Shown here: piece after piece, positions 10,100 through 36,387 of the stretch
Layout of the letters: each line of letters opens with the position of its first letter
Position numbering within the stretch: the stretch's first letter is position 1
IMG/VR virus record: IMGVR_UViG_3300009169_000037
Coordinates: 1-41,862 of that record
From: a virus
Reading direction: 5' to 3' (one strand)
DNA length: 41,862 nucleotides
Translations under genes and position numbers: made by a program
The notes under the pieces: model-generated
The model's database searches: none
Seen by the model: only the letters and a program-made list of their open reading frames with translations
What the model was told of the DNA's origin: nothing

Positions 10100-10858
10100 A
10101 GTATTATCTCCATTCACAGGTTCTAACTCTATTACTATTTCAGCGTCATCATGTTTCTGACTGCGCTTGGCAGCGACTTCTAAAATAACCGATCTAGGAT
10201 TAGCTGGATTCTTTACTAAACCACATCCTGAAAACAATAGATTTCTCAACACTCTAGTCACTGCCCCCTTTGCTATTTCTGTGCCTCGTCTGAGGATTTT
10301 AGCTATTTTACCAAGAACGTCTTCAGAAGCCAGACCCAGTGCCTCAGCTTCCTGTTGCGTCATGATTACATTGCCCACCTTCACGTCAAAATCAGTGAAG
10401 TAAGTTTCCATGGACAACTTCCATTTATTGTCTTTTACTTCTTTTGCCAATTCAGGAAATCTGCTCTTATACAGAATTCCAGCAATCATTACATCAAGTT
10501 CTATCTTTTCTAATTCTGCGGTAGTTTTATTTTTTAAATCTGAAACTTCCACTTTATTGCCTGCCCTATCAATAAAAGCAGCGTCATAAATATGTCCCAC
10601 AATCTCAGACTCACTATGTTCAATGTCCAACGGCTTGTTGGCGATTGTGTCGTGAGCTTTCACAAGCTCGGAGGGCATAAAATAAGCCTTGTTCAGATTC
10701 TCTCCTGAAGACACAAAAATACCTGTAAAATAAGATAGATCAGGCGTCTTATTATCAGGAAATGAAACAATCGAAGCTACGGCTTTCTTCAATTCTTCGG
10801 TTTCCTCGATCAACTGAATGTTAGCTTCGAGTTCTATTGGATGTTGTTTATTTTCCAC
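9737..10858 (-). CDS. Prohead maturation protease, with extra Cys-containing C-terminal domain
   Basis: 373 residues from a GTG start chosen because AAGGAGG lies seven bases upstream. Residues 60-225 resemble phage prohead serine proteases: NKPLDIEHSE with candidate catalytic His81, the AGILYKSRFPELA helix, and KWKLSMETYF with candidate Ser149, followed by FSGCGLVKNPANP. It lies between portal and scaffold, the usual place. After residue 235 comes a separate segment with four cysteines (ICV, WCA, SCT, ECL) that begins at an internal ATG with its own ribosome binding site. The protease would trim scaffold and capsid subunits inside the prohead. Confidence 0.72.
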   Translation of the reverse strand: MENKQHPIELEANIQLIEETEELKKAVASIVSFPDNKTPDLSYFTGIFVSSGENLNKAYFMPSELVKAHDTIANKPLDIEHSESEIVGHIYDAAFIDRAGNKVEVSDLKNKTTAELEKIELDVMIAGILYKSRFPELAKEVKDNKWKLSMETYFTDFDVKVGNVIMTQQEAEALGLASEDVLGKIAKILRRGTEIAKGAVTRVLRNLLFSGCGLVKNPANPRSVILEVAAKRSQKHDDAEIVIELEPVNGDNTMAKDKEKAAGPDFTSPADVSGGPGAYETRQQTSIGICVSYKRRVVDATFEGPDAPVLHEDWCALYEQSCTSPSRGADNPECLRVKAKQIAKSYTTSKLEQLYAQDRRGDLVIQLRNLLDR

Positions 10859-10927: not shown

Positions 10928-12880
10928 TTATTGCCCGTTTAGTTCGGTTAAGAATCCTTCCATGAATTCTATGAAGTCTTCTTCCGACATAGTTTGACTT
11001 GCGTACTCCACTACCTGCCTCACATCCACACTCGCAGCTTGTGGGCTGGCATTAGGTTGTTGGCTAGGTCTAGGCTTGGGTGCTTTTGTTTTAGTGTTAG
11101 TTTTCGTAGAAGGTTGTTTTGTTTTAGGAACTTGAGCTTTTGGTCTACCACTTGAAGGCGTGCCCGTAGGCGCTCCTGTAGGTTGCGTGCCACCAGGCCC
11201 AAATTTCGATTGCTGGAACGGACTGCCCTTAATACCAAGCGTTCCATCCAAAACAGAAGGCAACTCATTCTGCATACTATTAAATTCATTACCAAAATCA
11301 AATCCAAGTTCTTCAAGTGCCGTCTCGTAGGAAATCATACGTCTGTCTACCAAGTTAGCAATCGTAGTCATATAAAGAATAACATCTCGTAGCACTGCGT
11401 TATCCCATCGAACTCTTGGAAATCTATCAAAACCCATTGCTTCAGCTATCTGTCGGTATTCATTATAAATCCAATCTGATACCTGATTTCTTGCATAGTT
11501 GATTTCCTCAACCATTGTTTTGGTTACAAGTCCGGCTTCGCCTTGTCCTACAGTAGTGCCTCCATCAAGCAGCGCACGGCAGAAGGCAAGACCACCAGTA
11601 ATATCCTCATTTACTTGAGCGTACTTGTCTTGTCCTAAGACACTTTCAATTTCAGGAGATACTATTTTTTCAATTTCCAATGTATGGTTCCACACCACAT
11701 CGAAAGACTTGGAAGTGGTGTTAAAAAGTTCAGCTACAGTGTTTAACTGCGCCTGATCCACGACTGGAAACGTGTCATTACCTACTGTGATCTTAAGTAT
11801 GTAGTTGGTAATACCATCCAGAGTGCTTAGGTCTGCCTCTCGTAGAGATTTCTTGTATTCCAGCGCGTCGAAAACTTTTATTCCGCGCGGGCGTGGATAA
11901 CGCTCATAGGGTTGTTTTCTGTAATCCACTGCCCCTACAAACATCGGATCTAAAGGTATGTTGCCACCCTTTTCAACGGCAGCTTTAAATTCAGAAGGTA
12001 GAAGTTTGAGAATTTCTTTCTCATCTTCTGTTAATTCTCCACCAGCTTTTTTGATTAGTTTCTTCAATTCATCAGACGGAGTAAGCGTGGTGGCTGACTT
12101 ATCGAAAAGTAAACTACCCTCAAGATTGACTAACAACGGATTTAGTATTGTGTAGGCTATAGGCATATAACCCTTTGACCAAACACGCTTCTTTGCCGAT
12201 AATTCCATTTTAGTCATTTTGTCTAATTTCTTACGGGCGTCTAATCTTTTTAGTTCTTTCTCAAGGTTTTCAAGTCTAATTTTATGGATTCTATTAGCTC
12301 TTTCCACCATTTTCTGTAAATCACCACGAGCTTTTTTAGCGCCAGGAACTGGAGAAATATAACTAATTCCAGGTTCGTATTTACCTATAATCTTGTAAGT
12401 CCTAACCATACCAACTCTAAAAAAATCAAAGAAAATCCAATAGAGTAATTTATCAAACCCCACATCAAAATTCCAAGTGTCATAAAACGTCTTTATCTGA
12501 TCGTCGTCAATATCATTCTCAAATCCCTTACAAGACAGGTTGGTTAGAATATCAACGTGAGCTCCATAAATATCTGCTTCAAAATAATACTTAATGGATC
12601 TTCTATAAGCTTCCTTTGGGTCTAAATCAGACGGAGAAGTAGTAACAGATAAGTCCAGATAAGACCTATCCAACACATCTCTCCTAATTACAGCACCATA
12701 AGATGGTCCGTGAAGTTTTATAGCCTTATCAGCCGGCAACGAAGCCAACACCTTTTGAGTAGGCTGAACAAAGAAACTCGACTTACCGGTAGCTTCGTCT
12801 ACCTCTATTCTTTGAATACCCAAATCAGGGTATTTATCTTTCAGATCACTGGTTATTTTAGTTAATTTTTCAGAATCCAT
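10928..12880 (-). CDS. Portal protein
   Basis: 650 residues. It lies between large terminase and protease, the normal portal position, and has the size and mixed alpha/beta pattern of a portal. Recognisable stretches are EAYRRSIKYYFEADIYGAHV (about residues 90-110), WIFFDFFRVGMVRTYKI, and a C-terminal crown-like part with NYARNQVSDWIYNEY and FPRVRWDN. Residues about 565-615 are a low-complexity Pro/Lys/Thr/Gln linker, then a short acidic helix ends the protein (MSEEDFIEFMEGFLTELNGQ). As a dodecamer it would form the DNA entry channel and dock the terminase. Confidence 0.75.
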   Translation of the reverse strand: MDSEKLTKITSDLKDKYPDLGIQRIEVDEATGKSSFFVQPTQKVLASLPADKAIKLHGPSYGAVIRRDVLDRSYLDLSVTTSPSDLDPKEAYRRSIKYYFEADIYGAHVDILTNLSCKGFENDIDDDQIKTFYDTWNFDVGFDKLLYWIFFDFFRVGMVRTYKIIGKYEPGISYISPVPGAKKARGDLQKMVERANRIHKIRLENLEKELKRLDARKKLDKMTKMELSAKKRVWSKGYMPIAYTILNPLLVNLEGSLLFDKSATTLTPSDELKKLIKKAGGELTEDEKEILKLLPSEFKAAVEKGGNIPLDPMFVGAVDYRKQPYERYPRPRGIKVFDALEYKKSLREADLSTLDGITNYILKITVGNDTFPVVDQAQLNTVAELFNTTSKSFDVVWNHTLEIEKIVSPEIESVLGQDKYAQVNEDITGGLAFCRALLDGGTTVGQGEAGLVTKTMVEEINYARNQVSDWIYNEYRQIAEAMGFDRFPRVRWDNAVLRDVILYMTTIANLVDRRMISYETALEELGFDFGNEFNSMQNELPSVLDGTLGIKGSPFQQSKFGPGGTQPTGAPTGTPSSGRPKAQVPKTKQPSTKTNTKTKAPKPRPSQQPNASPQAASVDVRQVVEYASQTMSEEDFIEFMEGFLTELNGQ

Positions 12881-13241: not shown

Positions 13242-14957
13242 TTAGTTTATTGGTTTTTTCAACACAGCATACTGAGTATAAGGCTTGCCAGCCCCGACAG
13301 ACAAAGGTTTAAATGTAGCGCCTTTTGTGTGTGGCCTAGACAACCCTTGCGAATATACAAACTTAATTTGTTCAGATCCTTCCCTTACTAATTCTCTCGA
13401 ACCCCACGCAGATAAAATCAAAGCGGAATACAAGTCCTTGTTCTGACCTTTCTTTGGCGTATCAAAATGAGTCAAACCTCGGGAAGTAGGAGTCACAATT
13501 ATGTTCAATAATTGAGATTTCAATATTCTAACTTTTTCATACAACTCTTCCGCAATAGGATCTGAGTTCAAAGGAAGAGCTGGAAATCTAAGTTTTTGAT
13601 TTTCAAACAACGCCAGTGTATCAAAATTAGCGTCTGAAATCCAAGCAGGTGTGGGGTTAACCAACTGAAGTATATGTTTGCCTTCTTTTTCCAACATCGT
13701 TTCATCTTCCAAATCTATGATAAGAACGTGATTATTATATCCTTCCTGTAGTAAATCTCTGATAGGCTTTCCACCGCCCTGAGAATCCATAAAGATGCGC
13801 TTTACATTGAAAGCAGTGGTCAATCTTTGAATCTCCATAACCATCTGTTGAGTGGTTTTCTTTTTGAGACCATCCACATAAACAATGCGCAAAGGATCGC
13901 CAATCTCAATAATTACAACACCGCAAGCGGCAGCGCCACCTTGGTTGGGGTCTATTCCCATTACGTATTCTTTATCCTTGTCTCCATACATTTTAATACT
14001 GAAATCACTGCCTAAGGTACATTTTTCCAACAAAGAAGCTTTAAAGAAACCATCACTATCTGACACCATGGCGGCTTCGTATTCCATCATAAATTGTAAC
14101 GAAGACATCGTTCGTTTAGCTTCTGCTACATTGTCTGTGTCTAAAAATCCAGGAGGAAGCAATTGATAAGGAACTTGATACACAGCATACTTAGAATTAT
14201 CACCTTGTTCTCTTATAGCCTTCCAATAAGACTTCATACGATTCCACATATGATTGAACTTGAAATATCCAGATGAGGTCATAATCATTTTGTTAGCGCC
14301 CTGATCGTCGGCAAAATCTTCGGCACTCGCCAATCCTTGATCTATAAGTAGTTGCCTTCTTTCGAACTCTCTAACTCTTTCCATAGGTTCCAAAGAAACA
14401 GCCGCCATAGGTCTAACAACAAGATCAATAACATCCGTTGTCATCTGTGCCAACTCGTCTATCTCAATCAAATAGAAACGCGACCCTCTGATCTTGGCAC
14501 CATCCACACCGATAGGTAAAGCTTCTATAAAACTACCATTTGATCTATCTGTGCCTTTGAATTTAAGAAAGCAAGTGTCAGCACCTCGAACAGGTCTTTT
14601 CTCACAGGCTTCTCTTACTATGGACGATCTCAAATAGATCTTTTCCACCTCTGAGAAAATCATTTTTGATTGTCTAAAAGACGGAGCAATCAAACCTACC
14701 CTATACCCAGGATACAAAAGTGCGTGTAAAATAGCGTTCACAGCAAGAAGGAATGTCTTACCAAAACCACGACCAGCCACTGCTATCACATACTTCTTAA
14801 ACCACATATCTCTTAAAACAACTCTTTGAACAGGAGCCAAGTCCACATTCAAAAGATCATAAGCTGCCAACACAGGTTCATTACGATAGAATTCTATCAA
14901 ACCAGCGCCTTGAGTCATTATGTAATCTATATCGTCATACTTATGAACAGTAGCCAT
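13242..14957 (-). CDS. terL: Terminase large subunit
   Basis: 571 residues. The packaging ATPase half has Walker A AGRGFGKTF (about 61-69), Walker B RFYLIEIDEL (160-169) and the coupling motif MIMTSSG (224-230). The nuclease half has the RNase H-like acidic residues Asp336 (MGIDPNQGG), Asp391 (RIFMDSQGGG) and Asp508 (NKDLYSALILSAW). All expected elements are present, so the enzyme looks intact. Its ATG overlaps the stop of the preceding gene as TAATG, which supports coupling with the probable small subunit. It pumps DNA into the prohead and cuts the concatemer. Confidence 0.95.
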   Translation of the reverse strand: MATVHKYDDIDYIMTQGAGLIEFYRNEPVLAAYDLLNVDLAPVQRVVLRDMWFKKYVIAVAGRGFGKTFLLAVNAILHALLYPGYRVGLIAPSFRQSKMIFSEVEKIYLRSSIVREACEKRPVRGADTCFLKFKGTDRSNGSFIEALPIGVDGAKIRGSRFYLIEIDELAQMTTDVIDLVVRPMAAVSLEPMERVREFERRQLLIDQGLASAEDFADDQGANKMIMTSSGYFKFNHMWNRMKSYWKAIREQGDNSKYAVYQVPYQLLPPGFLDTDNVAEAKRTMSSLQFMMEYEAAMVSDSDGFFKASLLEKCTLGSDFSIKMYGDKDKEYVMGIDPNQGGAAACGVVIIEIGDPLRIVYVDGLKKKTTQQMVMEIQRLTTAFNVKRIFMDSQGGGKPIRDLLQEGYNNHVLIIDLEDETMLEKEGKHILQLVNPTPAWISDANFDTLALFENQKLRFPALPLNSDPIAEELYEKVRILKSQLLNIIVTPTSRGLTHFDTPKKGQNKDLYSALILSAWGSRELVREGSEQIKFVYSQGLSRPHTKGATFKPLSVGAGKPYTQYAVLKKPIN

Positions 14958-15935: not shown

Positions 15936-16424
15936 CTAAGCACCTTCCAGCATAATATCATCCAAGCAGCACTTCACTAATCTGTCAGAACCAAAAATCT
16001 CCACACTTACTAATAACTTGTCGTCATGTATTTCCTTTATGGTACAAATCAAACCTTTGAAAGGAGTTCCTATCAATTTGTAATTACCCCCAATATCTAT
16101 CTTAACCGGAGGCAACAATTCTTCGTAACTTTTCTTGGTCAATGATTCTACATGATCTATTTCCTGTTGTGAACAAGGACCTACATAGGACTTCAACCAT
16201 TGACAATTAGACAATTTAACCATCATATGAGGATCATGGTTGTATTTAATGAATATGTAATTGCTATACAAAGGTGTATATCTTATTCGTCTAGTGTGCT
16301 TAGTTGAAACTTCCTTCGAAACAGTTGGATACAAATACGTCTCTATCTCAGGAATGCTGTCAAGGTATTCCTGAACTTTCCTATATCTCTGCTGATTTAT
16401 AGACCATACGTGCCATGTGTTCAT
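15936..16424 (-). CDS. NusG-like transcription elongation/antitermination factor
   Basis: 162 residues. Residues 1-80 match an NGN domain: WHVWSINQQRYRKVQEYL, a YLYP strand, and PLYSNYIFIKY, which corresponds to the (P)xFPGYIFV motif of NusG. Residues about 112-160 match a KOW domain: GTPFKGLICTIKEIHDDKLL. The length is close to bacterial NusG (about 180). The start overlaps the previous stop as ATGA. NusG paralogues bind RNA polymerase and alter pausing or termination, so this one probably acts on long phage late transcripts. Regulatory action is inferred from the family. Confidence 0.8.
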   Translation of the reverse strand: MNTWHVWSINQQRYRKVQEYLDSIPEIETYLYPTVSKEVSTKHTRRIRYTPLYSNYIFIKYNHDPHMMVKLSNCQWLKSYVGPCSQQEIDHVESLTKKSYEELLPPVKIDIGGNYKLIGTPFKGLICTIKEIHDDKLLVSVEIFGSDRLVKCCLDDIMLEGA

Positions 16425-17509: not shown

Positions 17510-17776
17510 TTACTTTGTCCTCTCTTTCAGAGCAGCGAATTCCTCTTTGTTCTCTTTGATTTCTTCTTTGCTAGACTGCATCCAGCCCATAAGACCCATT
17601 ACGAATTCAGGGATAGTGTCACCCTTCCATTCATAGGAAACACTCAAATACTGATCGTCCCCAATCTTGACACCCATTCTGGCATACTTATAATCACCGC
17701 TCTTCATAATCTCCGACCCCACAATCTGAGCCGGATCAATTGTAATGTTCAAACTCTTGCTTTTCTTATCAGCCAT
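17510..17776 (-). CDS. Small hypothetical protein
   Basis: 88 residues, ending one base before the next start and beginning 3 bases after the dNMP kinase stop. The first half is beta-rich (SLNITIDPAQIVGSEIM, YLSVSYEWKGD), the second a helix (SSKEEIKENKEEFAALKERT). No known domain recognised; coupling to the kinase suggests co-expression only. Confidence 0.65.
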   Translation of the reverse strand: MADKKSKSLNITIDPAQIVGSEIMKSGDYKYARMGVKIGDDQYLSVSYEWKGDTIPEFVMGLMGWMQSSKEEIKENKEEFAALKERTK

Positions 17777-19624: not shown

Positions 19625-20620
19625 TTACAATATAGCAGCCATCAAACAACCATGCGCAACTGCTGTCATCGGGTCTACAGCGCGTTTAATGTCTTTTACT
19701 TTGAAGGGAAATGATTTTGAATTAGCCTCCATACTGAACTTCTCCACAAAATTGGTAGCCAAGGTCAATCCACCAGAAACCACAATCGGGATTGGTTCTC
19801 TGAAAGACGGAAGCTTTGCTTTCTTCAACTCAAACACTATATTGTCGAGTGCGTAGTTGATAAGAACACTATAATAAACCACCAAGGCTTCTTGAATCTT
19901 ATTATCAGGTTTTAACAAATCTAAACTTGATTCCTCTTTTTCAATCTGAACTAATGAAGGATTCAAATCTAAAGCATTACCTACAGATTTGTCTATCCAA
20001 TCACCTCCCTTGGTAAGTGAAAACTGAACTATTGGATCGCCTTCATAACATACTACAGCATTCACCATTCCAGCTCCAAAAGACAAACACATTCCTGTCA
20101 AACCATCATCCAGCAATTCTGAAAAAGCGATAGCAAATCCCTCATTAAGAGGACTGGCTATATAACCCATTTCCTTCAAATAAGTTTTCAACATTTCAGA
20201 ATGATAGTGAATGTCGAACTCACCATCAACTGGATCAGCTGGGATAGAAAAAATCAATTTAGTATCTCCATCCGCTTGCCCTATAATACTCTTAACCAAC
20301 AACTTCATAATGGGCAAGGAGTCTTTTTCTCGCGGGGAAAGAACACCTTTACTCATCGGTCTACGAGCTTCAGTATTACGCTCATTAGCCATTCTCAAAG
20401 CGTCTTCTCCTACAATAACAAACTCGTCATTGTCAATAATGAAGTTGGCTTTTCTGCTCTCCAAAGACATTCTAATACTCTTTCGATTTACTTCAGACTT
20501 GGGAGCAATCTTGAAGAAAGCGTCTCTCTGCTTTTTATAAACAGGGCTTCCACTTTCATCCAACATAGCAGCAACCAACATATTGGTCCCTACATCGAGA
20601 CCTACACCTTTACCAGACAT
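19625..20620 (-). CDS. Actin/Hsp70-fold ATPase (ParM/MreB-like)
   Basis: 331 residues, GGAGG before the ATG. The nucleotide-binding signatures of the actin superfamily appear in order: phosphate-1 GLDVGTNMLVAAM (7-19), FSIPADP (124-130), NEGFAIAFSELLD (159-171), phosphate-2 LSFGAGMVNAVV (179-190), GGDWIDKSVG (205-214), adenosine motif VVSGGLTLATNF (280-291) and DPMTAVAHGC (316-325). The length fits ParM, Alp or MreB filament proteins and is too short for full DnaK, with no substrate-binding domain. It lies 12 bases after a long coiled-coil gene that may encode its partner. Filament formation is inferred. Confidence 0.8.
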   Translation of the reverse strand: MSGKGVGLDVGTNMLVAAMLDESGSPVYKKQRDAFFKIAPKSEVNRKSIRMSLESRKANFIIDNDEFVIVGEDALRMANERNTEARRPMSKGVLSPREKDSLPIMKLLVKSIIGQADGDTKLIFSIPADPVDGEFDIHYHSEMLKTYLKEMGYIASPLNEGFAIAFSELLDDGLTGMCLSFGAGMVNAVVCYEGDPIVQFSLTKGGDWIDKSVGNALDLNPSLVQIEKEESSLDLLKPDNKIQEALVVYYSVLINYALDNIVFELKKAKLPSFREPIPIVVSGGLTLATNFVEKFSMEANSKSFPFKVKDIKRAVDPMTAVAHGCLMAAIL

Positions 20621-20632
20621 ACTAATACCTCC

Positions 20633-21499
20633 TTATAATTTCAGCAATTCCCTTAACTTAGCAAGATCGCCCTTTATGTTTCTTCCATTAGATTCTTCAG
20701 CAGGCTTCTCTTCCTTTACCTCTATGTGGGAATCCATTTGTTCTTCTCTACCTGGTTCAATAGGATCAATGAAAATCTTGTCCTCCAAAGCAGGTCTGTC
20801 CATATGACTGCCTACCAGAGGCTTGATAGATCCATTGGAAATCCTATCATACACCTGATCTAACTTTTCTCGTAGATCCTGCATCTCACCGGTTCTTGAC
20901 TCTATTACCGAATTCAATGTTTCAGTATTACTTCTCAAATCTGAAATCTGTTCGTCTTTACCTCTTATCGTCGATTCATACAAATCTATTTTAGCAGCAA
21001 GTTCAGCTTTTACAGAAGCAAGTTCAACAGATAGATTTTGGATAGATTGGTCTTTTTCAGAAATGGATTTTTGAAATTCAACAGCATTAGGCGCGCTTAA
21101 AACTTCCTCTTTTAACTTTCTAATCTCTGCCTTAAAATTTATCAAATCTTCCTGAGCGGCATTATACTTCTTTCTGGAATCCTTTAGTTGTTCATTCAAG
21201 CTATTCAAACCGCTTTCAAATCTGGCGGCTTCATCTTTTCTGGTAACTTCAACAGCTTCCAATAACTTCTGCCTAACTTCCTCTAAAGGCATATACTGCG
21301 ACAAATCTAGCTGAGCTTGAACTGGCTTATCACTCACAACAGGACCAGTCATTTGAGGACGAACTTCTCTGTCATTAGCAACCATTTCTCGTAACAACCT
21401 TTCTTGCTGATCTAATCTCTGACGAGTCTGGACATCTCTTGGTCCCCCGCGAGCTAAAATTTTACCAGATCTTTCTTTGTTATAAACTATTTTAGGCAT
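20633..21499 (-). CDS. Long coiled-coil protein, possible partner of the actin-like ATPase
   Basis: 288 residues. The basic N-terminus (VYNKERSGKILARGGPRDV) is followed by a helix (QRLDQQERLLREMV), a linker, then a continuous coiled coil from about residue 75 to 220 (LNEQLKDSRKKYNAAQEDL, ELASVKAELAAKIDLYES). The tail is acidic and ends in the helix IKGDLAKLRELLKL. Family not recognised. It is flanked 6 bases from ClpP and 12 bases from the actin-like gene, so the three are expressed together; a filament adaptor or a ClpP substrate are both possible. Confidence 0.7.
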   Translation of the reverse strand: MPKIVYNKERSGKILARGGPRDVQTRQRLDQQERLLREMVANDREVRPQMTGPVVSDKPVQAQLDLSQYMPLEEVRQKLLEAVEVTRKDEAARFESGLNSLNEQLKDSRKKYNAAQEDLINFKAEIRKLKEEVLSAPNAVEFQKSISEKDQSIQNLSVELASVKAELAAKIDLYESTIRGKDEQISDLRSNTETLNSVIESRTGEMQDLREKLDQVYDRISNGSIKPLVGSHMDRPALEDKIFIDPIEPGREEQMDSHIEVKEEKPAEESNGRNIKGDLAKLRELLKL

Positions 21500-21505
21500 T
21501 CAAAA

Positions 21506-22087
21506 CTAACTCCTTTTAGTCAAAATCTCGTCTACAATTCCATACTCTTTTGCTTCTTCCGCACTCATAAAATAATCCCGTTCCATATCTTTTCGCAATT
21601 GATCTACCGATTTACCAACCAAATTAGAAAATTCTTTCAGATAAAGGTCGTTCAATCTTTCAGTTTCCTTAAAATGAACTCTCATATCCTGGATATTGCC
21701 TTCTGTCCCAGCAGAGATTTGATGGATCATTATCCTAGAATTACCCAATGATAGTCTTTTACCCTTTGTTCCTGCCGCCAAAAGAAAAGCAGCGGCGCTG
21801 CTAGCAGATCCAGTACAAATAGTTGAAACAGCCGGTTTGATATAATTGATAGTATCGTAAATAGCCAGAGCTCCAATCGCAAGTCCACCAGGACTGTTGA
21901 TATAAAGCGTGATATCTCGTTCAGGATCATCAGCTTCCAAAAACAAAAGCTGAGCAACAACGGAGTTGGAAACTTCCTCGTCTATCCCAGACTTCAAGAA
22001 AATAATCCTATCCCTTAATAGCCTGGAATACAGATCATAAACTCGTTCATTTGAACCAGAACCTTCAATAACATACGGAACACTCAT
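21506..22087 (-). CDS. clpP: ClpP-family serine protease
   Basis: 193 residues, matching the usual mature ClpP length. LRDRIIFL, DITLYINSPGGLAIGALAIYD (split across residues 58-78), the nucleophile Ser97 in TGSASSAAAFLLAAG, His122 in RIMIHQ and Asp171 in MERDYFMSAEEAKEYGI-VDEI complete the catalytic triad. The nucleophile neighbourhood reads SASSAAA where bacterial enzymes have QAASMGA. It would form a barrel peptidase, either with host Clp ATPases or in head maturation. A separate prohead protease candidate exists here, so its role is open. Confidence 0.93.
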   Translation of the reverse strand: MSVPYVIEGSGSNERVYDLYSRLLRDRIIFLKSGIDEEVSNSVVAQLLFLEADDPERDITLYINSPGGLAIGALAIYDTINYIKPAVSTICTGSASSAAAFLLAAGTKGKRLSLGNSRIMIHQISAGTEGNIQDMRVHFKETERLNDLYLKEFSNLVGKSVDQLRKDMERDYFMSAEEAKEYGIVDEILTKRS

Positions 22088-22127
22088 AATTCAAATCCTC
22101 CTATAATGTAAATAACTTCCATTCTAT

Positions 22128-22133
22128 ATTATA
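22128..22133 (-). promoter_or_regulatory. Candidate -10 element upstream of clpP
   Basis: A perfect TATAAT on the minus strand lies about 40 bases before the clpP start, within an 86-base AT-rich gap between the fibre cassette and clpP. No good TTGACA is seen 17 bases upstream, so this is a weak promoter candidate. Confidence 0.3.
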
Positions 22134-22173
22134 GGATACAAATTCTATTTTACTAGATGAAAATTAACTAACC

Positions 22174-24468
22174 TTAAGATAAACCACCGTGACCATTAGA
22201 GCAAGCCCCGTGTGTTCTACGTGACAATGTCAAATCACTAAAATCAGAAGCATTTCCAGGAACACTAATAGTAATATAATCAATAATATTAGTGTCTGTT
22301 GATGTACCAATAGCACCACCACTAAATAAACCTCTAATGCTATTTGAACAAGACGATGGGTTATGTGATACAGTCAAATCTCCAAAATCCGAGGCATTAC
22401 CTAAACTATCAATGGTAATATAATCAATAATGTTATAATATGTAGTAGTGAACTGATTCCACCCGCCTCCAAAAACACCTCTAGTGGAAGATGAACAAGC
22501 TCCTAAATAAGACCTGCCAAGAGGGGCATCACCAAAATCTGCCGCATTACCAGCAGTGTTTATGGTAACATAATCGATGGTATTAGAAACATCGGAACCA
22601 GTACTACCGCCTATAAAAACACCACGAGTAGGAGAAGAACATGATGCACAACCATGCCTTCCTACTGTTAGATCTCCAAAATCCGTAACACTGCCAGCAC
22701 TACTTAAAGTAATATAATCAATAACATTTAAAACAGAGTAACCTCCTCCAAACAAACCCCTAACGGAGTTAGAACAAGCCGCTACAGAATACCTCGCGTA
22801 AGAAGAATTACCAAAAATAGAAGCATCGCCAAGAGTACTAAAATTAACATAGTCAAGCCTGTTGGAAGTATCGCCTGTATAACCACACGCAAACACACCG
22901 CGAACTGAAGATGAACAAGCTGCTAAATACCTTCTAGAAACAGTCAAATCGCCAAAATCGGCAGCATTTCCTAAAGTAGAAATTGCGACATAATCTATTA
23001 TATTAAGATAAGAGGTTGTCAATGCCGCATATCCACCACCAAACAATCCTCTATCTCCTATAACTGGGTAATCAGTAGATCTACTATAAGAAGTAGTAGG
23101 AGGAGTGAAATTAGAAGTCCATCGAGCAATTCCTTTAGAGATACGAAGTTCATCTATATAACCATTCAATCTATTATTACCATCAGTTGATCTACCACCA
23201 ATACCAAGCGTTAAATCTGATGTGTATAAAGCATTAGCAAAAGATAATGATGCGGTCTGTTGCACACCATCTACGTACAAATTGAAAACATTACCGTTGC
23301 GAACTAGGGCTATATGATAGAACGCACCAGAAGTCAATGTACTATTAGATTTAATAGATTTATCATAATCACTACCATTTATTGATAAATAAGCATAAAG
23401 ATAATTATCACTACCCATCATAATCAACCAACTACATTTAGTGTTTGTATGATCCCACTGGCTAGCTATATATTGATATGTGCCTAACACTATCAATCTA
23501 AACCAAGTGTCAATGGTAAAATCACCGGTTCCAAATTGCCAATCGGCAGAAGCTGGTACAGTTAGATAATCACCAGTTCCATCAAAATAGTAAGATCCAT
23601 TCCATTTCGTAGTGGCAGCGTTTAACTTTGTATCGCCGGCGAAAGTAATTTCATTTACAGAATCACTCTCGTCGCCGTCAAAATGAAGAAGAAGTTTAGT
23701 GTAAGAATCTGAAGTATAAGCGGAGGTGGAAGGTGTAAACGTGGTAGTCCAGCGGGCTATACCTTTAGAAATCCTAAACTCATCCAAATAACCATTCAGA
23801 TAATTAGATGTAAGTTCTCCCATTCTTCCTATACCTAAAGTGGTAGTAGCATTATTCACCGACACTCCAGTTACATCGTAGGTGCCTTGCGAACTACCGT
23901 CTAAAAATAATCGCAACGTATTACCATCCCTCAAGAACGCTATATGATGCCAATCGGTATCAATTATAGACCCTGAAGATATTATAGGATAAACATTAGA
24001 TCCTGAATTAACTTGGGCTCTTATCGTGTTATCAGCTAAAATTTGTATCGCAAAACTCACAGAAGCAGTTTCCCCGATAGAGTTAATTTGCCCGGCCAGC
24101 CTATGTTGAACGCCTATAATCGCTCTTCTAACCCAAAAATCCACCGTGAAATCCCCTGATCCAAAATTCCAGTCGTCACTGTCAGTTACAGACAAATAGT
24201 CATCGGAACCATCAAAATATATACTTGAAGCCCCAACTTTCTTTACTATGGAAGATAGTTTAGGACCACCATTAGTAGTAATTTGATTTTGAGAAGCGGA
24301 TCTGTCACCGTCCATATGGAGAGCTAGTTTGGTGTAACTATCTATACCTCCAGCTATGGCTGGGGCACTACCTCCACCTGGATATTTTCCAATGTTAGCC
24401 TTAGTGATAGCAAACATTTTACCCAGATTGTTTATATCTGTAGTCCAGATTTTTGAGACATTAGCCAT
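22174..24468 (-). CDS. Receptor-binding protein: anchor, two LamG-like domains, six kelch-like repeats
   Basis: 764 residues, GAGGAG before the ATG. Residues 1-36 are the shared anchor module (MANVSKIWTTDINNLGKMF ... GGGSAP). Two LamG/concanavalin-like domains follow (about 43-250 and 255-460), paralogous to each other: each has SYTKL-L-H-DGD, YFDG, DFTxDxWxR, LNGYxDE-RISKGIARW. Residues 473-764 hold six repeats of about 48 residues with RGxFxGGY, (N)xIDYxTIxxxGNAxDFGDLTxxRR and ACSxSxR, probably a six-bladed propeller. Fusion of LamG and propeller is unlike the other cassette members. Likely a host-surface binding appendage. Confidence 0.8.
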   Translation of the reverse strand: MANVSKIWTTDINNLGKMFAITKANIGKYPGGGSAPAIAGGIDSYTKLALHMDGDRSASQNQITTNGGPKLSSIVKKVGASSIYFDGSDDYLSVTDSDDWNFGSGDFTVDFWVRRAIIGVQHRLAGQINSIGETASVSFAIQILADNTIRAQVNSGSNVYPIISSGSIIDTDWHHIAFLRDGNTLRLFLDGSSQGTYDVTGVSVNNATTTLGIGRMGELTSNYLNGYLDEFRISKGIARWTTTFTPSTSAYTSDSYTKLLLHFDGDESDSVNEITFAGDTKLNAATTKWNGSYYFDGTGDYLTVPASADWQFGTGDFTIDTWFRLIVLGTYQYIASQWDHTNTKCSWLIMMGSDNYLYAYLSINGSDYDKSIKSNSTLTSGAFYHIALVRNGNVFNLYVDGVQQTASLSFANALYTSDLTLGIGGRSTDGNNRLNGYIDELRISKGIARWTSNFTPPTTSYSRSTDYPVIGDRGLFGGGYAALTTSYLNIIDYVAISTLGNAADFGDLTVSRRYLAACSSSVRGVFACGYTGDTSNRLDYVNFSTLGDASIFGNSSYARYSVAACSNSVRGLFGGGYSVLNVIDYITLSSAGSVTDFGDLTVGRHGCASCSSPTRGVFIGGSTGSDVSNTIDYVTINTAGNAADFGDAPLGRSYLGACSSSTRGVFGGGWNQFTTTYYNIIDYITIDSLGNASDFGDLTVSHNPSSCSNSIRGLFSGGAIGTSTDTNIIDYITISVPGNASDFSDLTLSRRTHGACSNGHGGLS

Positions 24469-24488
24469 TTTATTTTCTCCTCAACTTA
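24464..24488 (-). repeat. 25-bp direct repeat, copy 1 (fibre gene ribosome binding site)
   Basis: This stretch around the ribosome binding site and first codons of the gene at 22174-24468 is identical over 25 bases to positions 32985-33009. Similarity continues, with a few mismatches, into the coding sequence. Confidence 0.85.
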
Positions 24489-25484
24489 AACGTTCGATGT
24501 GGCACAAACATACTCTCTTCCAGATAATAAATCACCAAAGTCAGCGGCATTTCCAGTTGAAGTAATGGTGACATAATCAATGACATTATAGCTATTTCCA
24601 CCACCAAATACACCTCTGTTTCCAGATCCGCTGGAACAAGATCCAAAACCAGCGCGCACTATCGTCAAATCTCCGAAATCAGCAGCATTGCCTGTAGAAG
24701 AAATATTGATATAATCAAGGACATTTACATACGCTGGTGTATTATTCAGACCGCCGGCAAAAATACCTCTATTATTAGTACCATTAGAGCATCCTGAAAG
24801 ATAACGTCTAGCCATCGATAAATTCCCAAAATTAGTGGTATCACCAGCACTTGATATAGTAACATAACCCATGTTTGCATAAGGATCGTTATCATTAACT
24901 CCGCCAGCAAAAACAGCTCTGTTATTTGTCCTATTATCTACAGCCCCAGGAGTTTGTGTTGATCCGTATTGTATATCACCAAACTTACTGGCATTGCCAG
25001 TAGTACTTATGGTAATGTAATCTATTCGAGTTATAGCCCCACCCCCATTATTACCGCCACCAAACAAACCACGTCCATTAGTTCCATTAGAACATCCTGC
25101 CCTAGTATTAGTAGGCGCACTGAATTCTCCAAAACCACTAGCGTTTCCAGGAGTAGAAATAGTTACATAATCTATAGTACATTTATATCCTAAATTATAA
25201 CCGCCGCCGAAAACACCTCTGTTTGAAGTGCCATTCGAACAAGCCGATGATTGTTGTCTAGCCAATGTAAGGTCACCAAAATCTGTGGAATTACCTAGAG
25301 TGGATATAGTAATCTGGTCTATGTTATTTTTAGGGCCTGACCCACCTCCAAATACACCCTTACTACTATCCACTACCGGAGCACTACCACCGCCTGGATA
25401 TTTTGATATGTTGGCTTTAGCGGTAGCAAACATTTTACCAACATTATTAATATTTGTAGACCAAACTTTTGATATATCAGGCAT
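24486..25484 (-). CDS. Six-repeat kelch-like propeller fibre-tip protein
   Basis: 332 residues. The N-terminus MPDISKVWSTNINNVGKMF and PGGGSAP form the shared anchor module. From about residue 44 to the end come six repeats of about 48 residues, each with RG(V/I/L)FGGG, a xIDYxTIS strand, GNAxDFGD and a SNGT turn. The GG doublet and spacing recall kelch motifs. The last repeat ends at CATSNV. Probably a secreted-surface-facing virion tip for receptor binding, inferred from the family design. Confidence 0.78.
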   Translation of the reverse strand: MPDISKVWSTNINNVGKMFATAKANISKYPGGGSAPVVDSSKGVFGGGSGPKNNIDQITISTLGNSTDFGDLTLARQQSSACSNGTSNRGVFGGGYNLGYKCTIDYVTISTPGNASGFGEFSAPTNTRAGCSNGTNGRGLFGGGNNGGGAITRIDYITISTTGNASKFGDIQYGSTQTPGAVDNRTNNRAVFAGGVNDNDPYANMGYVTISSAGDTTNFGNLSMARRYLSGCSNGTNNRGIFAGGLNNTPAYVNVLDYINISSTGNAADFGDLTIVRAGFGSCSSGSGNRGVFGGGNSYNVIDYVTITSTGNAADFGDLLSGREYVCATSNV

Positions 25485-25490
25485 TTTATT

Positions 25491-26552
25491 TTACACCTCT
25501 TTGCTAGGATCTTTGTACATATACCAATCCTCGTGTAAATCTTCTACTCCTATTTGTCTCAATACTTTTTTGTATTCATCTTTAAACTGAGCGCTCATGT
25601 CTTCTAGGAACTTATGTAAATCGTCTATGTCCAGTAGATCGTCTATTGACACGTCTTCTTTGTTTTCCAAGTCGCCCAATTTTCCGGCGCGGCTCTCAAT
25701 ATATTCAGCGACAATCTTACTAGCTGTCATAGGATGAATACCAAACTGACCTAAATATTCAATGGTTCCCATACCTATTCTTCCACTAACCAAAAGATCG
25801 CGGAGTAAAAGAAGGAACCCCATCTGAATGTGGTGTTCCACTTCCGCCTTCTCTAAATCCTGTTCGTCCCAGTTTTCTGGAATACCTTTGTTTTTTATGA
25901 TTTGTAAATAAGAAGATTGAAAAGAAGCTACATCTTTTAGAGCTCCTTCCATGTAAAGCATGGCATCATGAATGCCAGTGATCAACTTTTCCATCTTAAT
26001 CTTTTTCATATCCAGATCAAACATCAAATTCATTTGTTCATCTTCTATCGCAACAACATCACCGGGATAGTCAGCCTTCTGAGCTGCTTCTATCCTTTTG
26101 GGTATTTCATTCAACTGCTTTTCTACTTTACCTATTTCATATCTAATTTTGTTAAGTTTAACATAACTTTCCGCCAGCTTAAATCTGTTTTCCTTGATCG
26201 CTTGGCGGCGATTTTCAATTTCAGTAAGACACTGACGGACTATTCTCATAGGAGAGATTCCGTTCAGCATTGTTAGAGTCATCAGCCTATTCGTTACTTG
26301 GGTGTTTTTCCTGCCTAACGACCTCGTGGCTCGATTTATTTCTGGCATCCTATCTGCGATAGTGGCTAGCTTAGTTTCATCGAATACGTGGAACTTAGGC
26401 ACTAAATCTGTGCCCTCTACCGCCCTTGTAGTAATTTGGTTAAATACGTTTGTTTTATCCAATAAAGCTGTTAATTGCGTATTAGCCTTATCCGCTAAAT
26501 CCAAACCATCCTTAATTATCAAATCTAAACTATTTTCGTTTCCCATAATCAT
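25491..26552 (-). CDS. Helical hypothetical protein within the fibre cassette
   Basis: 353 residues, AAGGAG five bases before the first ATG (MIMGNENS). Nearly all helical with coiled coil around residues 105-160 (ENRRQAIKENRFKLAESYVK, YEIGKVEKQLNEIPKRIEA). The C-terminal part is acidic (VSIDDLLDIDDLHKFLEDM). It has no repeats or beta domain like its fibre neighbours. Family not recognised; a chaperone or assembly role for the fibres would fit its location but is not shown. Confidence 0.7.
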   Translation of the reverse strand: MIMGNENSLDLIIKDGLDLADKANTQLTALLDKTNVFNQITTRAVEGTDLVPKFHVFDETKLATIADRMPEINRATRSLGRKNTQVTNRLMTLTMLNGISPMRIVRQCLTEIENRRQAIKENRFKLAESYVKLNKIRYEIGKVEKQLNEIPKRIEAAQKADYPGDVVAIEDEQMNLMFDLDMKKIKMEKLITGIHDAMLYMEGALKDVASFQSSYLQIIKNKGIPENWDEQDLEKAEVEHHIQMGFLLLLRDLLVSGRIGMGTIEYLGQFGIHPMTASKIVAEYIESRAGKLGDLENKEDVSIDDLLDIDDLHKFLEDMSAQFKDEYKKVLRQIGVEDLHEDWYMYKDPSKEV

Positions 26553-26577
26553 TAAATCTCCTTTTCTGTTTTAATTA

Positions 26578-27606
26578 TTAAGCATTAGAGCATGCATTAC
26601 AGCTGCTCCTTGCAACCGTTAAGTCGCCAAAATCCGATGTATCACCAGTAGTGTTAATAGTCGCATAAGCAACTACATTGGTGTATCCTCCAAAATACCA
26701 ACCACCTGTAAACAACGCCTTATTACTAGTTCCATTAGAAGTCGCACCAGCACCACCACCTATCGACTGCATATCTCCGAAATCAGAAGCATTTCCCGTG
26801 GTATTAATAGTGATGTAATCAATGATATTGTAATTAGCAACATAATCATACCCACCAGTATAAATAAATCTTTCACCAGTCAAGTTAGAAGTACCAACTG
26901 CTCCGTATTCAACTCTTCTTCCATCTCCAAAATCAGCAGCATTACCTGTAGTAGAAATAGTTATATAATCAATGACATTGGTTGCGCTGGACCCTCCTGT
27001 GTAACCACCCACAAAAACACCTCTACCATTTGTGCCGTTAGAACCAGCAGCTACATATTCTCTACTAACCGTCACATCCCCAAAATCAGAAGCATTACCT
27101 GTAGTAGCAATGGTTATGTAGTTTATCACATTATTAACCTGAGCCCCAATTCCCCCAGCAAATATACCCCTACCAGTCGTATTATTCGAAGTTCCGCCAG
27201 TTGCGCCTGCATTACCGGTCAAATTTCCAAAATTTGAGGAATTTGATGGAGAGTTTATTGTAACATAACTTATAGAACTTACACCTCCCCAATCCCATCC
27301 TACAGTGCCACCACCAGCTATACCTCTACCAGTAACTCCGTTCGAGGTAGCGGCTAAATAACTTCTTGCAACTACCATATCTCCAAAGTCAGTAGCGTTG
27401 GTGTTGGTAGAAATGTTAATGGTATCTATAGTGTTGGTCTGGGCACCAGAACCACCATTGTAACCGCTAAAAATAACACCTTTGGCACTGGAAGTAGGAG
27501 GGGCACTACCACCCCCTGGAAATTTACCAATGTTGGCTTTGGTGGTAGCAAACATCTTGCCTAAATTACTTATGCTAATTGACCATACTTTAGAAACGTC
27601 AGCCAT
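26578..27606 (-). CDS. Six-repeat kelch-like propeller fibre-tip protein
   Basis: 342 residues. Anchor module MADVSKVWSISISNLGKMF with PGGGSAP, then six repeats of 46-53 residues from about 43 onward. Consensus is RGxFxGGY, NxIDYITIxTTGNAxDFGD, xxSNGT. Repeat 2 is most divergent (SSISYVTINSPSNSSNFGNL). It is closely related to the genes at 24486 and 33755. Likely receptor-binding, by analogy with other repeat-tip fibre proteins. Confidence 0.78.
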   Translation of the reverse strand: MADVSKVWSISISNLGKMFATTKANIGKFPGGGSAPPTSSAKGVIFSGYNGGSGAQTNTIDTINISTNTNATDFGDMVVARSYLAATSNGVTGRGIAGGGTVGWDWGGVSSISYVTINSPSNSSNFGNLTGNAGATGGTSNNTTGRGIFAGGIGAQVNNVINYITIATTGNASDFGDVTVSREYVAAGSNGTNGRGVFVGGYTGGSSATNVIDYITISTTGNAADFGDGRRVEYGAVGTSNLTGERFIYTGGYDYVANYNIIDYITINTTGNASDFGDMQSIGGGAGATSNGTSNKALFTGGWYFGGYTNVVAYATINTTGDTSDFGDLTVARSSCNACSNA

Positions 27607-27620
27607 TTAGTTTTTACCCC

Positions 27621-28079
27621 TTACGTGTAATATAATTCGATATTAGTTATACTAAAACTACCACCTTCAAAATACAAACGACCCCAGGTATCAGTAATGG
27701 TGAAATCAGCCTCTTTGCCTGAAGTGTAATCAGAATCATCATAATAATGCGCTGATCCACCGGCGTCTCTAACTGACATTGTCAAAGGACTAGCCCCCTC
27801 AAAAGTTATACGTATTTTAGTGCCAGAAGGGGCTGTCAACACCGACAGCACAACTTCCCAACCATTAGAACGCCAACTTGTTGGAGGATCTTCAGGATCG
27901 TCATACCACCAACCTTGGTTGGATTCCCATTCGGTGTTGTCAAAATGAACATGCCAATTGTCTCCGCCACCGCCAGCAACTTTTTGGTCCATAAAACGCA
28001 TATTTGCTACTTTAGTTATAGATAAAATCGAGCCAACATTATTAATAGGTGTATCCCAAATTTTTGCTATATCAGCCAT
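27621..28079 (-). CDS. Short fibre-tip protein: anchor plus small beta-sandwich
   Basis: 152 residues. The anchor module MADIAKIWDTPINNVGSIL is kept, but instead of repeats there is one C-terminal domain of about 110 residues (WHVHFDNTEWES, GWEVVLSVLTAPSGTKIRIT, WGRLYFEGGSFSITNIELYY). Aromatic-rich beta strands suggest a carbohydrate-binding-type sandwich. It shows the anchor joined to yet another tip type. Confidence 0.65.
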   Translation of the reverse strand: MADIAKIWDTPINNVGSILSITKVANMRFMDQKVAGGGGDNWHVHFDNTEWESNQGWWYDDPEDPPTSWRSNGWEVVLSVLTAPSGTKIRITFEGASPLTMSVRDAGGSAHYYDDSDYTSGKEADFTITDTWGRLYFEGGSFSITNIELYYT

Positions 28080-28093
28080 TTTTATTTACCCCT

Positions 28094-28573
28094 TTATCCT
28101 GAATAAGTTGGTAATTCAATATTGTAAGCCACTAATTCAGCATAATCAGTGATAGATGTCACATCAGATTCCACTGTAACAACAGCGGACCTAATTGACG
28201 ATCTGTAGTTCTCCACATCCGTAGGAATAGCAACATCGACTTCGTATTTTCTAATTACATACCAGTCAAAAGGATGTAATATTTCCCAAGCCATCATTTT
28301 AGCTTGATCTTTCTTTACTTCTCTTACACCAGACACAGTGTACTTTGGTTCTACTGAATGTGTGGCTACTACTTCACCCGCGACAATTTCTTCTGTAACC
28401 CCAGTGCTTGTGTAATATTCACCATTATACTGAACTTCACGATAAGGATAAATGTCGAGGGCATTCATCTCAGGGATTGACCACACATAAAACATACTAG
28501 CTGGGTAAAGAACACCGCTAATAGTTACATCTCTAGGTTTGCTAATAATTGCGCCATCAGGCAATTTCCACAT
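28094..28573 (-). CDS. Fibre-tip or tail fibre assembly-like protein
   Basis: 159 residues, AAGGAG before the ATG. The opening MWKLPDGAIISKPRDVTISG, ALDIYPYREV, and HPFDWYVIRKYEVDVAIPTD followed by VENYRSSIRSA match a conserved pattern (DWxVIRxxE, VPxxVxxYRxxIR) found in many phage tail fibre assembly or tip proteins. It is in the middle of the fibre cassette. Exact role cannot be separated between structural tip and chaperone. Confidence 0.6.
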   Translation of the reverse strand: MWKLPDGAIISKPRDVTISGVLYPASMFYVWSIPEMNALDIYPYREVQYNGEYYTSTGVTEEIVAGEVVATHSVEPKYTVSGVREVKKDQAKMMAWEILHPFDWYVIRKYEVDVAIPTDVENYRSSIRSAVVTVESDVTSITDYAELVAYNIELPTYSG

Positions 28574-28590
28574 AGTTTATTCTCCTTTGT

Positions 28591-31035
28591 TTATCTTGCG
28601 GTACTATATTTAAAGGGCGTCTCGGCCCAAGCCATAAAAATGTATCTATCTCCAGAATAGTTCCAATCGTATCCAGCATGTCTCAACTTAAAACCGTTAG
28701 CAAGCAAATCAACCACGTTATAAGAAGTACTTTCAGAAGAAGTAGTTTCAGCCCATATCTGATGGTTGCTCACATTATATGTATCACGCTCCGCGTCAAT
28801 TAAAGTCCATGATCCAGCCCCACTCAAATACCCACTAGCGTGCTTCCAAATAATTAGTTTGGGTTTAAATCCGCAATATACAAACGTACCATTAGTGGAG
28901 CCGTTTCCTATAAAATAACTAAACTTCGAAAAGCCTTCTATTTCAGACCATAAATAAGCTACGTGATCTTTCCCACTTTCATTATTACCAGTATTAGCAC
29001 CTACGGTAAATTGAGTAGCTGTTGGAGCTGTATCGTTCCATACAGTGTTATTATCACTAGCGCCACCACCAGTATCCAAAGCCATCCAGTCTGTTTCAGG
29101 ATCAGTCGCCATAAACATGTGTAGCGTATACCAGTCCTGTGCAGATGTAGCATTTCTTTCTTTTGTAATCAATAATTTAGGAGCTATGCCTAGAGAATGA
29201 TTTATGTTTTGAACTGATCCTGTTCCAGTATAAGCTACAATATCAAATCCATAGGCAGCGCCTTTTTTCCAACACCAATTTACATAATTATGAGTGTTGT
29301 AGTTATAGTAAGATCCTGCGGCTCCAATGGTAAAACCCGTAGAGGAAACTCCCGATAAATAACCATAAGAATTATATTGACCTTCGTGATATGTTTCATT
29401 AGGATACAACTGCTTTCCGCTAGCAAATCCTCTAACACTATCCATTAAGGTATGATCGACATTATCACTTCTATTTTTACTCCATACCATATCAGACTGA
29501 AAACTTAAACCAGACAATGTTCTAGGTGCAGTACCATCACCTGTATAAAGTATAGTATCAAATGCTGTAGAGGACATTACAATTGAAGGAGTCTCTAAAT
29601 TGTAGGAGCAGACTGCTAAGAAATTTGTAGGCGGAGCGTATTCAAAATTACCTATCCCATTTGAGTCAGTATTTCCAGAAGCAACATTTGCTGAATCCTG
29701 ACCAAAATTAGCGTATAAAGCAGAGCTTCTTGATTCAACAGTTGGAGAATAAACTTTACCTATAGTCAGGGTGGTTGTCTCGTTAGTACCCGCAGCAGGA
29801 TTACCACTTCCATACCAAGTACCATTCAAACCAAACCATATTTTTCTATTATCCGTATCTATCGCGATACTAATAATATCCCCAGTTGTAATAGAGGCCG
29901 GTGATCCAAACTCAGAATTTTCTTTTACATATTTAGAATACGTGCTATAAAAATAATGTCCTATACCTTCCACATAAGTGACATCGTTTATCATAATATC
30001 AGAAGTAATAGGCAAAACACCTATAACACTACCATTGCTAGCAGCTGAAGTTACTTTCACTTCCCAATACCATTTTCCATACGTCAATGCTAAAGTAGAT
30101 CGCACCGCAGGATAAGAAGCCCCATTTCCAACAAATTTCAAATTCCCTTCAGTTAATGTGCCACCTCCGTTACCAATATCGAGAGGATTTAATACACAAA
30201 AATTGTTGGTAGGGCTATCCGTTATTTGATCGGTGGTAGTAAGCCCACTAGATGTAAAATCATTGTTATTCCCAGAAATGTCGTTTCCTAAGTCTGAAGC
30301 ATTAGCGAAATCCAAATGAAAACCATTAGTGCCGTAAGTCCCAGCGTAAGCTTTAGGAATCCAAGCGCCTGTGGTAGCACTGATTTCTCCGAAAGAAGAG
30401 GGGGTTAGTTGCTGACCATTGATCATATACACATCCGAGATATAACCATTAAAATAGTACCCAACAGTGGGCTCACCATAACCACCCACACGATGTACAC
30501 AAGCAGCACCTACCGCTCCTTCATCATTCTGAGTAGGATAAGTAGCGACAGCCCCGGTATACTGGACACCGTTAACATACAACTTAAATCTATTAGTATT
30601 TGTAGCTTGAGTAGTATCCAAAGCCACCACAATATGATACCAAGCCGAAGGATCGCGATAAAAAGAAACCGTATCACAATTTATTGACAGGCTATTAGCC
30701 CAAGATACCACTTGCATGTATTGCGGCCCGAAGATCAATCTAAATCTATAATTACCATCCACATAAGCATCAAATAGGGGTGGAACAGAGGTAGTCATGC
30801 TACCTAATTTTGCCCACATAGATAAGGTCCAGGTCTTTCTGTTACCCGCGCCAGAAAATGTCTTTGTCAAATAAGGGCTGTCTGGATTATTAAATCTACA
30901 GGAGTAATCCACCTCGTAAACTGGCTCAGATCCACCAACAAGTATTCCCATTATCTTACCAATACCGGATTTAGCAATTCCGAATAATTTACCCACATTG
31001 GAGTACAATACTGACAGGATTGAATTAACAGCCAT
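28591..31035 (-). CDS. Large adhesin: anchor, LamG-like, SPRY-like and phage repeat C-terminal domains
   Basis: 814 residues from ATG at 31035, chosen because GGAGAT lies eight bases upstream; a longer frame would overlap the preceding gene. Residues 1-36 are an anchor variant (MAVNSILSVLYSNVGKLFGI). Residues 55-205 are LamG-like (KTWTLSMWAKL, YHIVVALDTT, FKLYVNGVQ). Residues 318-448 are SPRY-like (GKWYWEVKVTS, IAIDTDNRKIWFGLNGTW). From 495 on, two or more copies of a unit with YTGxGxxxxLxHSLG, PKLLITKERN and DWMALDTGG resemble a domain seen in marine phage fibres. Likely a receptor-binding virion protein. Confidence 0.78.
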   Translation of the reverse strand: MAVNSILSVLYSNVGKLFGIAKSGIGKIMGILVGGSEPVYEVDYSCRFNNPDSPYLTKTFSGAGNRKTWTLSMWAKLGSMTTSVPPLFDAYVDGNYRFRLIFGPQYMQVVSWANSLSINCDTVSFYRDPSAWYHIVVALDTTQATNTNRFKLYVNGVQYTGAVATYPTQNDEGAVGAACVHRVGGYGEPTVGYYFNGYISDVYMINGQQLTPSSFGEISATTGAWIPKAYAGTYGTNGFHLDFANASDLGNDISGNNNDFTSSGLTTTDQITDSPTNNFCVLNPLDIGNGGGTLTEGNLKFVGNGASYPAVRSTLALTYGKWYWEVKVTSAASNGSVIGVLPITSDIMINDVTYVEGIGHYFYSTYSKYVKENSEFGSPASITTGDIISIAIDTDNRKIWFGLNGTWYGSGNPAAGTNETTTLTIGKVYSPTVESRSSALYANFGQDSANVASGNTDSNGIGNFEYAPPTNFLAVCSYNLETPSIVMSSTAFDTILYTGDGTAPRTLSGLSFQSDMVWSKNRSDNVDHTLMDSVRGFASGKQLYPNETYHEGQYNSYGYLSGVSSTGFTIGAAGSYYNYNTHNYVNWCWKKGAAYGFDIVAYTGTGSVQNINHSLGIAPKLLITKERNATSAQDWYTLHMFMATDPETDWMALDTGGGASDNNTVWNDTAPTATQFTVGANTGNNESGKDHVAYLWSEIEGFSKFSYFIGNGSTNGTFVYCGFKPKLIIWKHASGYLSGAGSWTLIDAERDTYNVSNHQIWAETTSSESTSYNVVDLLANGFKLRHAGYDWNYSGDRYIFMAWAETPFKYSTAR

Positions 31036-31051
31036 TTTTTTATCTCCAGTG

Positions 31052-32938: not shown

Positions 32939-32941
32939 TGT

Positions 32942-32989
32942 TTACTCCTTGTTAATGCCGACTGTCCAAATTTTTGAAACATCAGCCAT
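32942..32989 (-). pseudogene. 15-codon remnant of the fibre anchor module
   Basis: With GAGGAG before its ATG, this frame reads MADVSKIWTVGINKE and then stops. The first 13 residues match the anchor module of the propeller genes (MADVSKVWSISISN), but it ends where the others continue with GKMF. Its last codons supply the AAGGAG used by the next gene. It looks like a truncated copy left by recombination, or a short leader coupling translation of 31052-32938. Confidence 0.75.
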
Positions 32990-33009
32990 TTTATTTTCTC
33001 CTCAACTTA
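32985..33009 (-). repeat. 25-bp direct repeat, copy 2
   Basis: Identical over 25 bases to 24464-24488. Here it encodes the last codons of the glycosyltransferase (DKLRRK and its stop) as well as the ribosome binding site and start of the remnant frame. This marks a likely recombination junction. Confidence 0.85.
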
Positions 33010-33734: not shown

Positions 33735-33754
33735 AATAAATCCCTCCCAAGTAA

Positions 33755-34789: not shown

Positions 34790-34814
34790 TTCAGTTTACC
34801 TCACTATAAAGTTC

Positions 34815-34842: not shown

Positions 34843-34850
34843 TATTTCAA

Positions 34851-36376: not shown

Positions 36377-36387
36377 ATAAAGATAAA

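Follow-up and report, generated by a model that had tools for sequence, protein, structure and literature searches.

Why would a virus carry, among its structural genes, an actin-like ATPase together with a coiled-coil protein and a ClpP peptidase? The question is raised by a 41.9-kb virus record (41,862 nt), called the window throughout, in which the three genes lie next to one another on the minus strand. A sequence-only reading had proposed that an actin-like protein with a dedicated coiled-coil partner and a protease could form an assembly or positioning system, which the protease might take apart. Phage actins accompanied by adaptors are already a known kind of system. Here we establish to which actin family the window protein belongs, how far its neighbours are conserved with it and where else the features of its partner are found, and we propose how the module may work.

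Gene order and genomic context

The clpP gene (21506-22087; 193 aa) comes first, followed after 6 nt by the gene for a 288-aa coiled-coil protein (20633-21499), the proposed actin adaptor, and after a gap of 12 nt by that for the 331-aa actin-like ATPase (19625-20620). All three start with ATG and share one reading frame. The ORFs bear out the earlier description of the trio, including its place between fibre and packaging genes: upstream are fibre-like genes with tail-fibre and virion PHROGs (22174-38463), and downstream are TerL (13242-14957), a portal-like gene (10928-12880) and an MCP-like gene (6656-7729). From position and strand we infer that the trio is expressed late.

Two unannotated genes lie between the portal-like and capsid-like genes, one prohead-protease-like (9737-10858; IEHSES...KWKLSMETYF, read from sequence) and the other coiled-coil and scaffold-like (8413-9198). 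A NusG-like protein in the same gene run as the trio (15936-16424; PF02357, PHROG antiterminator) is a possible late antitermination factor. Scanning the trio region for promoters and terminators gave counts close to those in shuffles. Upstream of clpP the gap contains an inverted repeat of 12 nt (22099-22136), which may be an operator or a terminator, and a perfect sigma-70 consensus, TTGACA-16-TATAAT, is found on the plus strand at 17667-17694, antisense within the gene at 17510-17776.

An actin-like ATPase of the Volactin family

The Pfam family Volactin (PF25216), to which the cell-shape actin of Haloferax volcanii belongs, covers the ATPase over its full length (residues 6-329, profile positions 3-321 of 321), at 6e-66 and 223.5 bits against a cut-off of 35, and identity to haloarchaeal volactin/salactin is about 36%. 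A profile of 19 relatives searched against the PDB matched MamK (4e-6) and MreB (2e-5), with ParM and crenactin absent from its matches. Searched singly with phmmer, the ATPase had no better than chance matches in the PDB, with no actin among them, and a direct search against PHROGs gave no match. The predicted fold, with core pLDDT mostly >85, is closest to MreB, MamK and BeeR by Foldseek, with a TM-score to target of 0.70-0.71 against the filament forms of MreB and MamK; DnaK structures among the matches listed reach 0.54 at most. The viral fold database BFVD contained nothing close: its matches were Hsp70-like or remotely actin-like viral proteins, among them Hsp70 homologues and Bacillus phage G gp506 (TM 0.54). 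Assignment to an actin-like, filament-type family therefore holds both by Pfam and by structure, where the best matches are MreB and MamK instead of chaperones or sugar kinases. The Pfam, PDB profile and Foldseek results together rule out a DnaK or sugar kinase identity.

The nucleotide-binding motifs, all on the minus strand, can be located individually. The phosphate-1 loop GLDVGTNML (residues 7-15; 20576-20602) is kept in the 19 relatives, and the adenosine motif VSGGLTLA (19757-19780) is conserved among relatives. NEGFAIA (20126-20146) aligns with SEPFMVGY of MamK and contains the invariant E160, which we take to be the catalytic glutamate position. The phosphate-2 loop LSFGAGMVN (20060-20086) departs from the usual pattern. 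Its first residue is Asp in actin, MreB and ParM; here the motif reads S180-F-G-A-G, and the Ser is invariant in the aligned viral and archaeal relatives, archaeal volactin included. With Ser in place of Asp, hydrolysis may be weak, but archaeal volactin shares this residue. The earlier statement that all nucleotide motifs are intact thus needs qualifying: the motifs are conserved, but phosphate-2 starts with Ser and not Asp. The same loop is an intein insertion point (IS|CGAGM) in the actins of three phage relatives (L059:5989-8088, L014:3067-5169 and L057:383-1870); two of the inteins are large, the one in L059 having a recognised LAGLIDADG domain, and the third is a mini-intein.

Conservation of the three genes

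A profile-derived IMG/VR scan found at least 445 confirmed relatives, on viral contigs of up to 545 kb, and a pair of huge-phage records (485 and 595 kb) also have relatives. The scan of cellular genomes, one per species, yielded 291 relatives in haloarchaea, other archaea, Omnitrophota, Acidobacteriota and others. Plasmid matches to archaeal volactin were limited to four haloarchaeal megaplasmid records. The complete ClpP, coiled-coil and actin trio is also present on two loci from bacterial bins, which may be binned phage.

A maximum-likelihood tree unites the clade of the window (43 rows) with a support of 100/100 and places the haloarchaeal volactins apart. Gene order was counted over 46 distinct near-clade loci, a locus being informative where it holds enough sequence. 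The coiled-coil gene lies upstream of the actin gene on the same strand in 43/43 informative loci, mostly with a gap of <35 nt, and ClpP lies upstream of the coiled-coil gene in 37 of 38. Over pairs with measurable dS, which is saturated in some pairs, dN/dS is 0.02-0.13 for clpP, 0.09-0.18 for the coiled-coil gene and 0.04-0.07 for actin; purifying selection acts on each of the three. Because their order is kept in tens of divergent viruses and dN/dS is 0.18 or lower where measurable, the trio is not a chance arrangement, and the suspicion that its neighbours might not be conserved in relatives can be set aside.

The coiled-coil partner

The 288-aa protein is conserved at its two ends. Its N-terminal motif, YNKE..GR.L..GGPRDxQ.RQ, has a core, GGPRD (21434-21448, minus strand), that is conserved among relatives. 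The C-terminal tail (20636-20773, minus strand), the proposed actin-binding element, comprises FIDP..., DSHIEV and the helix GDLAKLRELLKL; the consensus is FIDP...LDSHI...DLxKLRxLL and the window version FIDP...DSHIEV...DLAKLRELLKL. Mean pairwise identity falls from 42% in both the N-terminus and the FIDP segment and 37% in the tail helix to 26% in the coil and 18% in the linker. Conserved ends with a variable coil and linker are the layout of an adaptor. The arrangement is also of the arcadin-2 type, with a conserved C-terminal helix beyond a variable linker. With its gene upstream of actin in every informative near-clade locus and its tail motif tracking actin, the protein is, as first suggested, a dedicated actin partner.

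A tail shared with haloarchaeal membrane proteins

In distant phages, proteins of other kinds stand upstream of the actin and carry a similar tail, for example DPLFIPS...ALKKLKRK. We searched a phage-only HMM made from 12 of these distant-phage tails against every ORF in the loci retrieved. Among near-clade ORFs its only matches, at E<0.1, were 22 coiled-coil proteins. The 4,127 ORFs of 60 archaeal loci contain 47 matches at E<1 (best 4e-7), every one of them a DUF7139-type membrane-protein gene of a volactin locus, mostly just upstream of volactin. Reversed and shuffled ORFs gave no matches. The HMM of the near-clade tail had no match among archaeal partner proteins at E<1, so the link between phage and archaeal tails runs through the distant phages.

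Volactin is present in 39 of the 59 Halobacteria genomes sampled. Tail-type DUF7139 is found in all 39 (family E-value 1e-68 or better) and in none of the 31 DUF7139 copies from volactin-negative genomes, which are all of other subtypes; both counts ignore genome relatedness. Coordinates place the DUF7139 gene adjacent to volactin in 30 of the 39 genomes, the tail-type copy lying elsewhere in the other nine. The tail HMM reaches E<=1 in 34 of the 39 tail-type proteins, the remainder having a divergent tail. Haloferax volcanii, the control genome, scored above the cut-off for volactin and for DUF7139. The presence of the same tail in the viral partner and in the membrane protein that accompanies haloarchaeal volactin points to a shared actin-anchoring system.

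The window actin resembles volactin/salactin in its full-length PF25216 match, in its degree of identity and in its phosphate-2 Ser, and most volactin-bearing haloarchaea likewise have a tail-motif gene just upstream. It differs in being viral and in a clade of its own, in having a partner predicted to be a soluble coiled-coil protein rather than a membrane protein, and in the addition of ClpP.

Two further observations concern cellular loci. The DUF7139 paralogues of volactin-negative haloarchaea (L183-L213) often have a Cys-rich end, YCGNCxHFxY, instead of the tail. Omnitrophota loci, such as L103:4434-9029, have a chromosomal cluster of a ParA-like protein, a coiled coil and two volactin paralogues (~330 and ~475 aa), after which comes a protein of 195 aa with a C-terminal sequence similar to the tail motif (STLEKLRRLKGL).

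In the distant phages the neighbours of the module include a gp10-like tail completion protein (PF04883, PHROG 5) and a virion-like 390-aa protein, which lends some support to a link with virion assembly. A distant-phage gene of ~1,200 aa was considered as a tail sheath from its VPPGVYTRT start and rejected, being without Pfam or PHROGs support. In the large phages L070, L077, L080 and L081 a Dps/ferritin-like protein (PF00210 in L081) lies between partner and actin.

Predicted models of the tail with actin

AlphaFold models were made of tail-actin fusions. The phage fusion joins the partner tail in-frame to actin, with the intervening stop read as Gly (406 aa), on an alignment of 28 rows that excluded one row from an annotated phage record and its companion. 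The model has a pLDDT of 86.9 and a pTM of 0.87. Tail residues 24-70 are ordered, with block means of 83, 77, 70 and 86 over residues 31-70; a helix at 57-68 covers DLAKLRELL, and pLDDT is <50 in residues 1-23 only. In the Natrinema fusion, made through the 32-codon intergenic linker, a VELSW strand and the helix DDQTAKLKELREQQRAEEL are ordered (helix blocks 80-90), and the linkers at 38-86 and 142-178 have pLDDT <50. The tail is predicted to be ordered beside actin in both the phage and the archaeal fusion, and tethering itself can favour such contact.

ClpP

The window ClpP matches PF00574 (2e-68) and is most like cellular ClpP (PDB ClpP chains, 2e-64); its best PHROG is a head maturation protease family. 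The triad S97/H122/D171 is invariant in 19 aligned ClpP relatives. The gene sits 8.6 kb upstream of the portal gene, outside the interval from portal to major capsid gene. ClpP beside actin is, in the volactin loci examined, essentially confined to the clade of the window, and the distant volactin phages examined have no accompanying ClpP, with the exception of L073, where a divergent copy lies two genes downstream. We thus regard ClpP as an accessory and not as a core part. Jumbo-phage ClpP has been noted earlier as possibly deployed against the host (PMC7824862).

Discussion

The reading we favour, at a probability of roughly two in three, is that the locus encodes a viral cytomotive module made of a volactin-family actin and an actin-binding adaptor, acting late. 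We infer its filaments, the binding site of the tail, the late timing, the cargo and the role of ClpP as follows. The 331-aa actin most likely assembles into ATP-dependent filaments in the late phase, the volactin of Haloferax volcanii being known to form dynamic filaments in vivo (PMC10869688). The C-terminal tail of the partner would bind the actin, most plausibly through a helix lodged in its groove; the C-terminal helix of arcadin-2 occupies the groove of crenactin between subdomains IA and IIA, and ParR with ParM is a like precedent. For a phage operon of adaptor and actin the precedent is AlpA-AlpC of the Corynebacterium glutamicum prophage CGP3, where the adaptor gene likewise comes first and is co-transcribed with that of the virus-encoded actin; AlpC is expressed early (PMC4446434), and no ClpP is reported there. 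The coiled coil would oligomerise the partner, and the N-terminus (YNKE...GGPRDxQ) would hold the cargo, probably a virion or DNA component, or ClpP, and so couple it to the filaments. ClpP would be a clade-specific accessory acting, probably with a host unfoldase, on proteins delivered by the module. The proposed late positioning by a viral filament recalls PhuZ of jumbo phages, which has a tubulin fold whereas the window protein has an actin fold.

The partner might instead be a sequestering or depolymerising regulator of the arcadin-2 type, with ClpP and a host unfoldase removing either actin or regulator and so timing the breakdown, in line with the sequence-only reading. The likeness to the crenactin system is one of layout: a neighbouring gene encodes a conserved C-terminal helix after a non-conserved linker, and that of arcadin-2, which depolymerises, binds actin. 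The near-constant presence of ClpP upstream in the near clade would suit such a role. However, crenactin is not among the PDB profile matches, a long coiled coil and a conserved motif at the N-terminus are more suggestive of tethering than of sequestering only, the haloarchaeal partners are membrane proteins, which fits anchoring, and nearly all distant volactin phages are without an accompanying ClpP. We see regulation as a minority possibility.

Partition of the ParMRC type, in which the actin would separate the genomes of a plasmid-like virus while the partner binds a centromere-like repeat and the actin end, appears unlikely. An actin paired with an adaptor that has a C-terminal actin-binding helix does resemble ParM with ParR, salactin has been linked to DNA partition (PMC10746226), and AlpA of the prophage system AlpAC binds DNA (PMC4446434). 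In the window, however, the region upstream of the trio (21950-22400) has no direct-repeat family that could serve as iterated centromere-like repeats, Pfam and PHROGs searches recognise no DNA-binding domain in the partner, and ParM, as noted above, is missing from the PDB profile matches. The partner gene precedes actin, the opposite of parMR, and the trio is set among fibre, packaging and connector genes.

Alteration of the host, through cell-shape rebuilding or a block of the host cytoskeleton rather than movement of viral cargo, is suggested by the control of cell shape by archaeal volactin (PMC10869688); with the trio positioned among virion and packaging genes, we find it distinctly unlikely. 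That ClpP and the coiled coil are a head maturation protease and scaffold beside an unrelated actin is very improbable and is rejected as the main reading, for although the best ClpP PHROG is of that family and coiled coils are common among scaffolds, the tail motif tracks actin and not heads, the window ClpP resembles cellular ClpP, and the separate protease-like and scaffold-like genes described above exist.

Conclusions

A cytomotive module of volactin-family actin and adaptor may reach beyond this virus. Volactins would then be a two-part system found over viruses, archaea and some bacteria, an actin with a partner whose tail stays the same and whose head changes, a generalisation for and against which we find the case evenly balanced. 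The haloarchaeal head would be the DUF7139 membrane protein, anchoring the filament tips; the viral head would be a coiled coil or a small virion-linked domain tying filaments to cargo, and one viral clade would add ClpP. Volactin filament tips touch the haloarchaeal membrane and binding factors have been suspected (PMC10869688), while salactin showed poor synteny and no partner was found (PMC10746226).

Within an incomplete coverage of the literature, no volactin-naming paper with a virus-themed title was found and DUF7139 was not named; a huge-phage survey names tubulins and no actin. The viral volactin, the tail that viral partners have in common with a haloarchaeal membrane protein, and the association with ClpP therefore appear to be new, to the extent of that search.

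Volactin-family actins are widespread in viruses, huge phages included, and virologists gain a defined module with measurable cargo and timing. The viral trio also leads to a concrete haloarchaeal candidate, DUF7139 with the shared tail. If the two-part reading is true, the cell-shape actin of haloarchaea would thereby have its partner identified.
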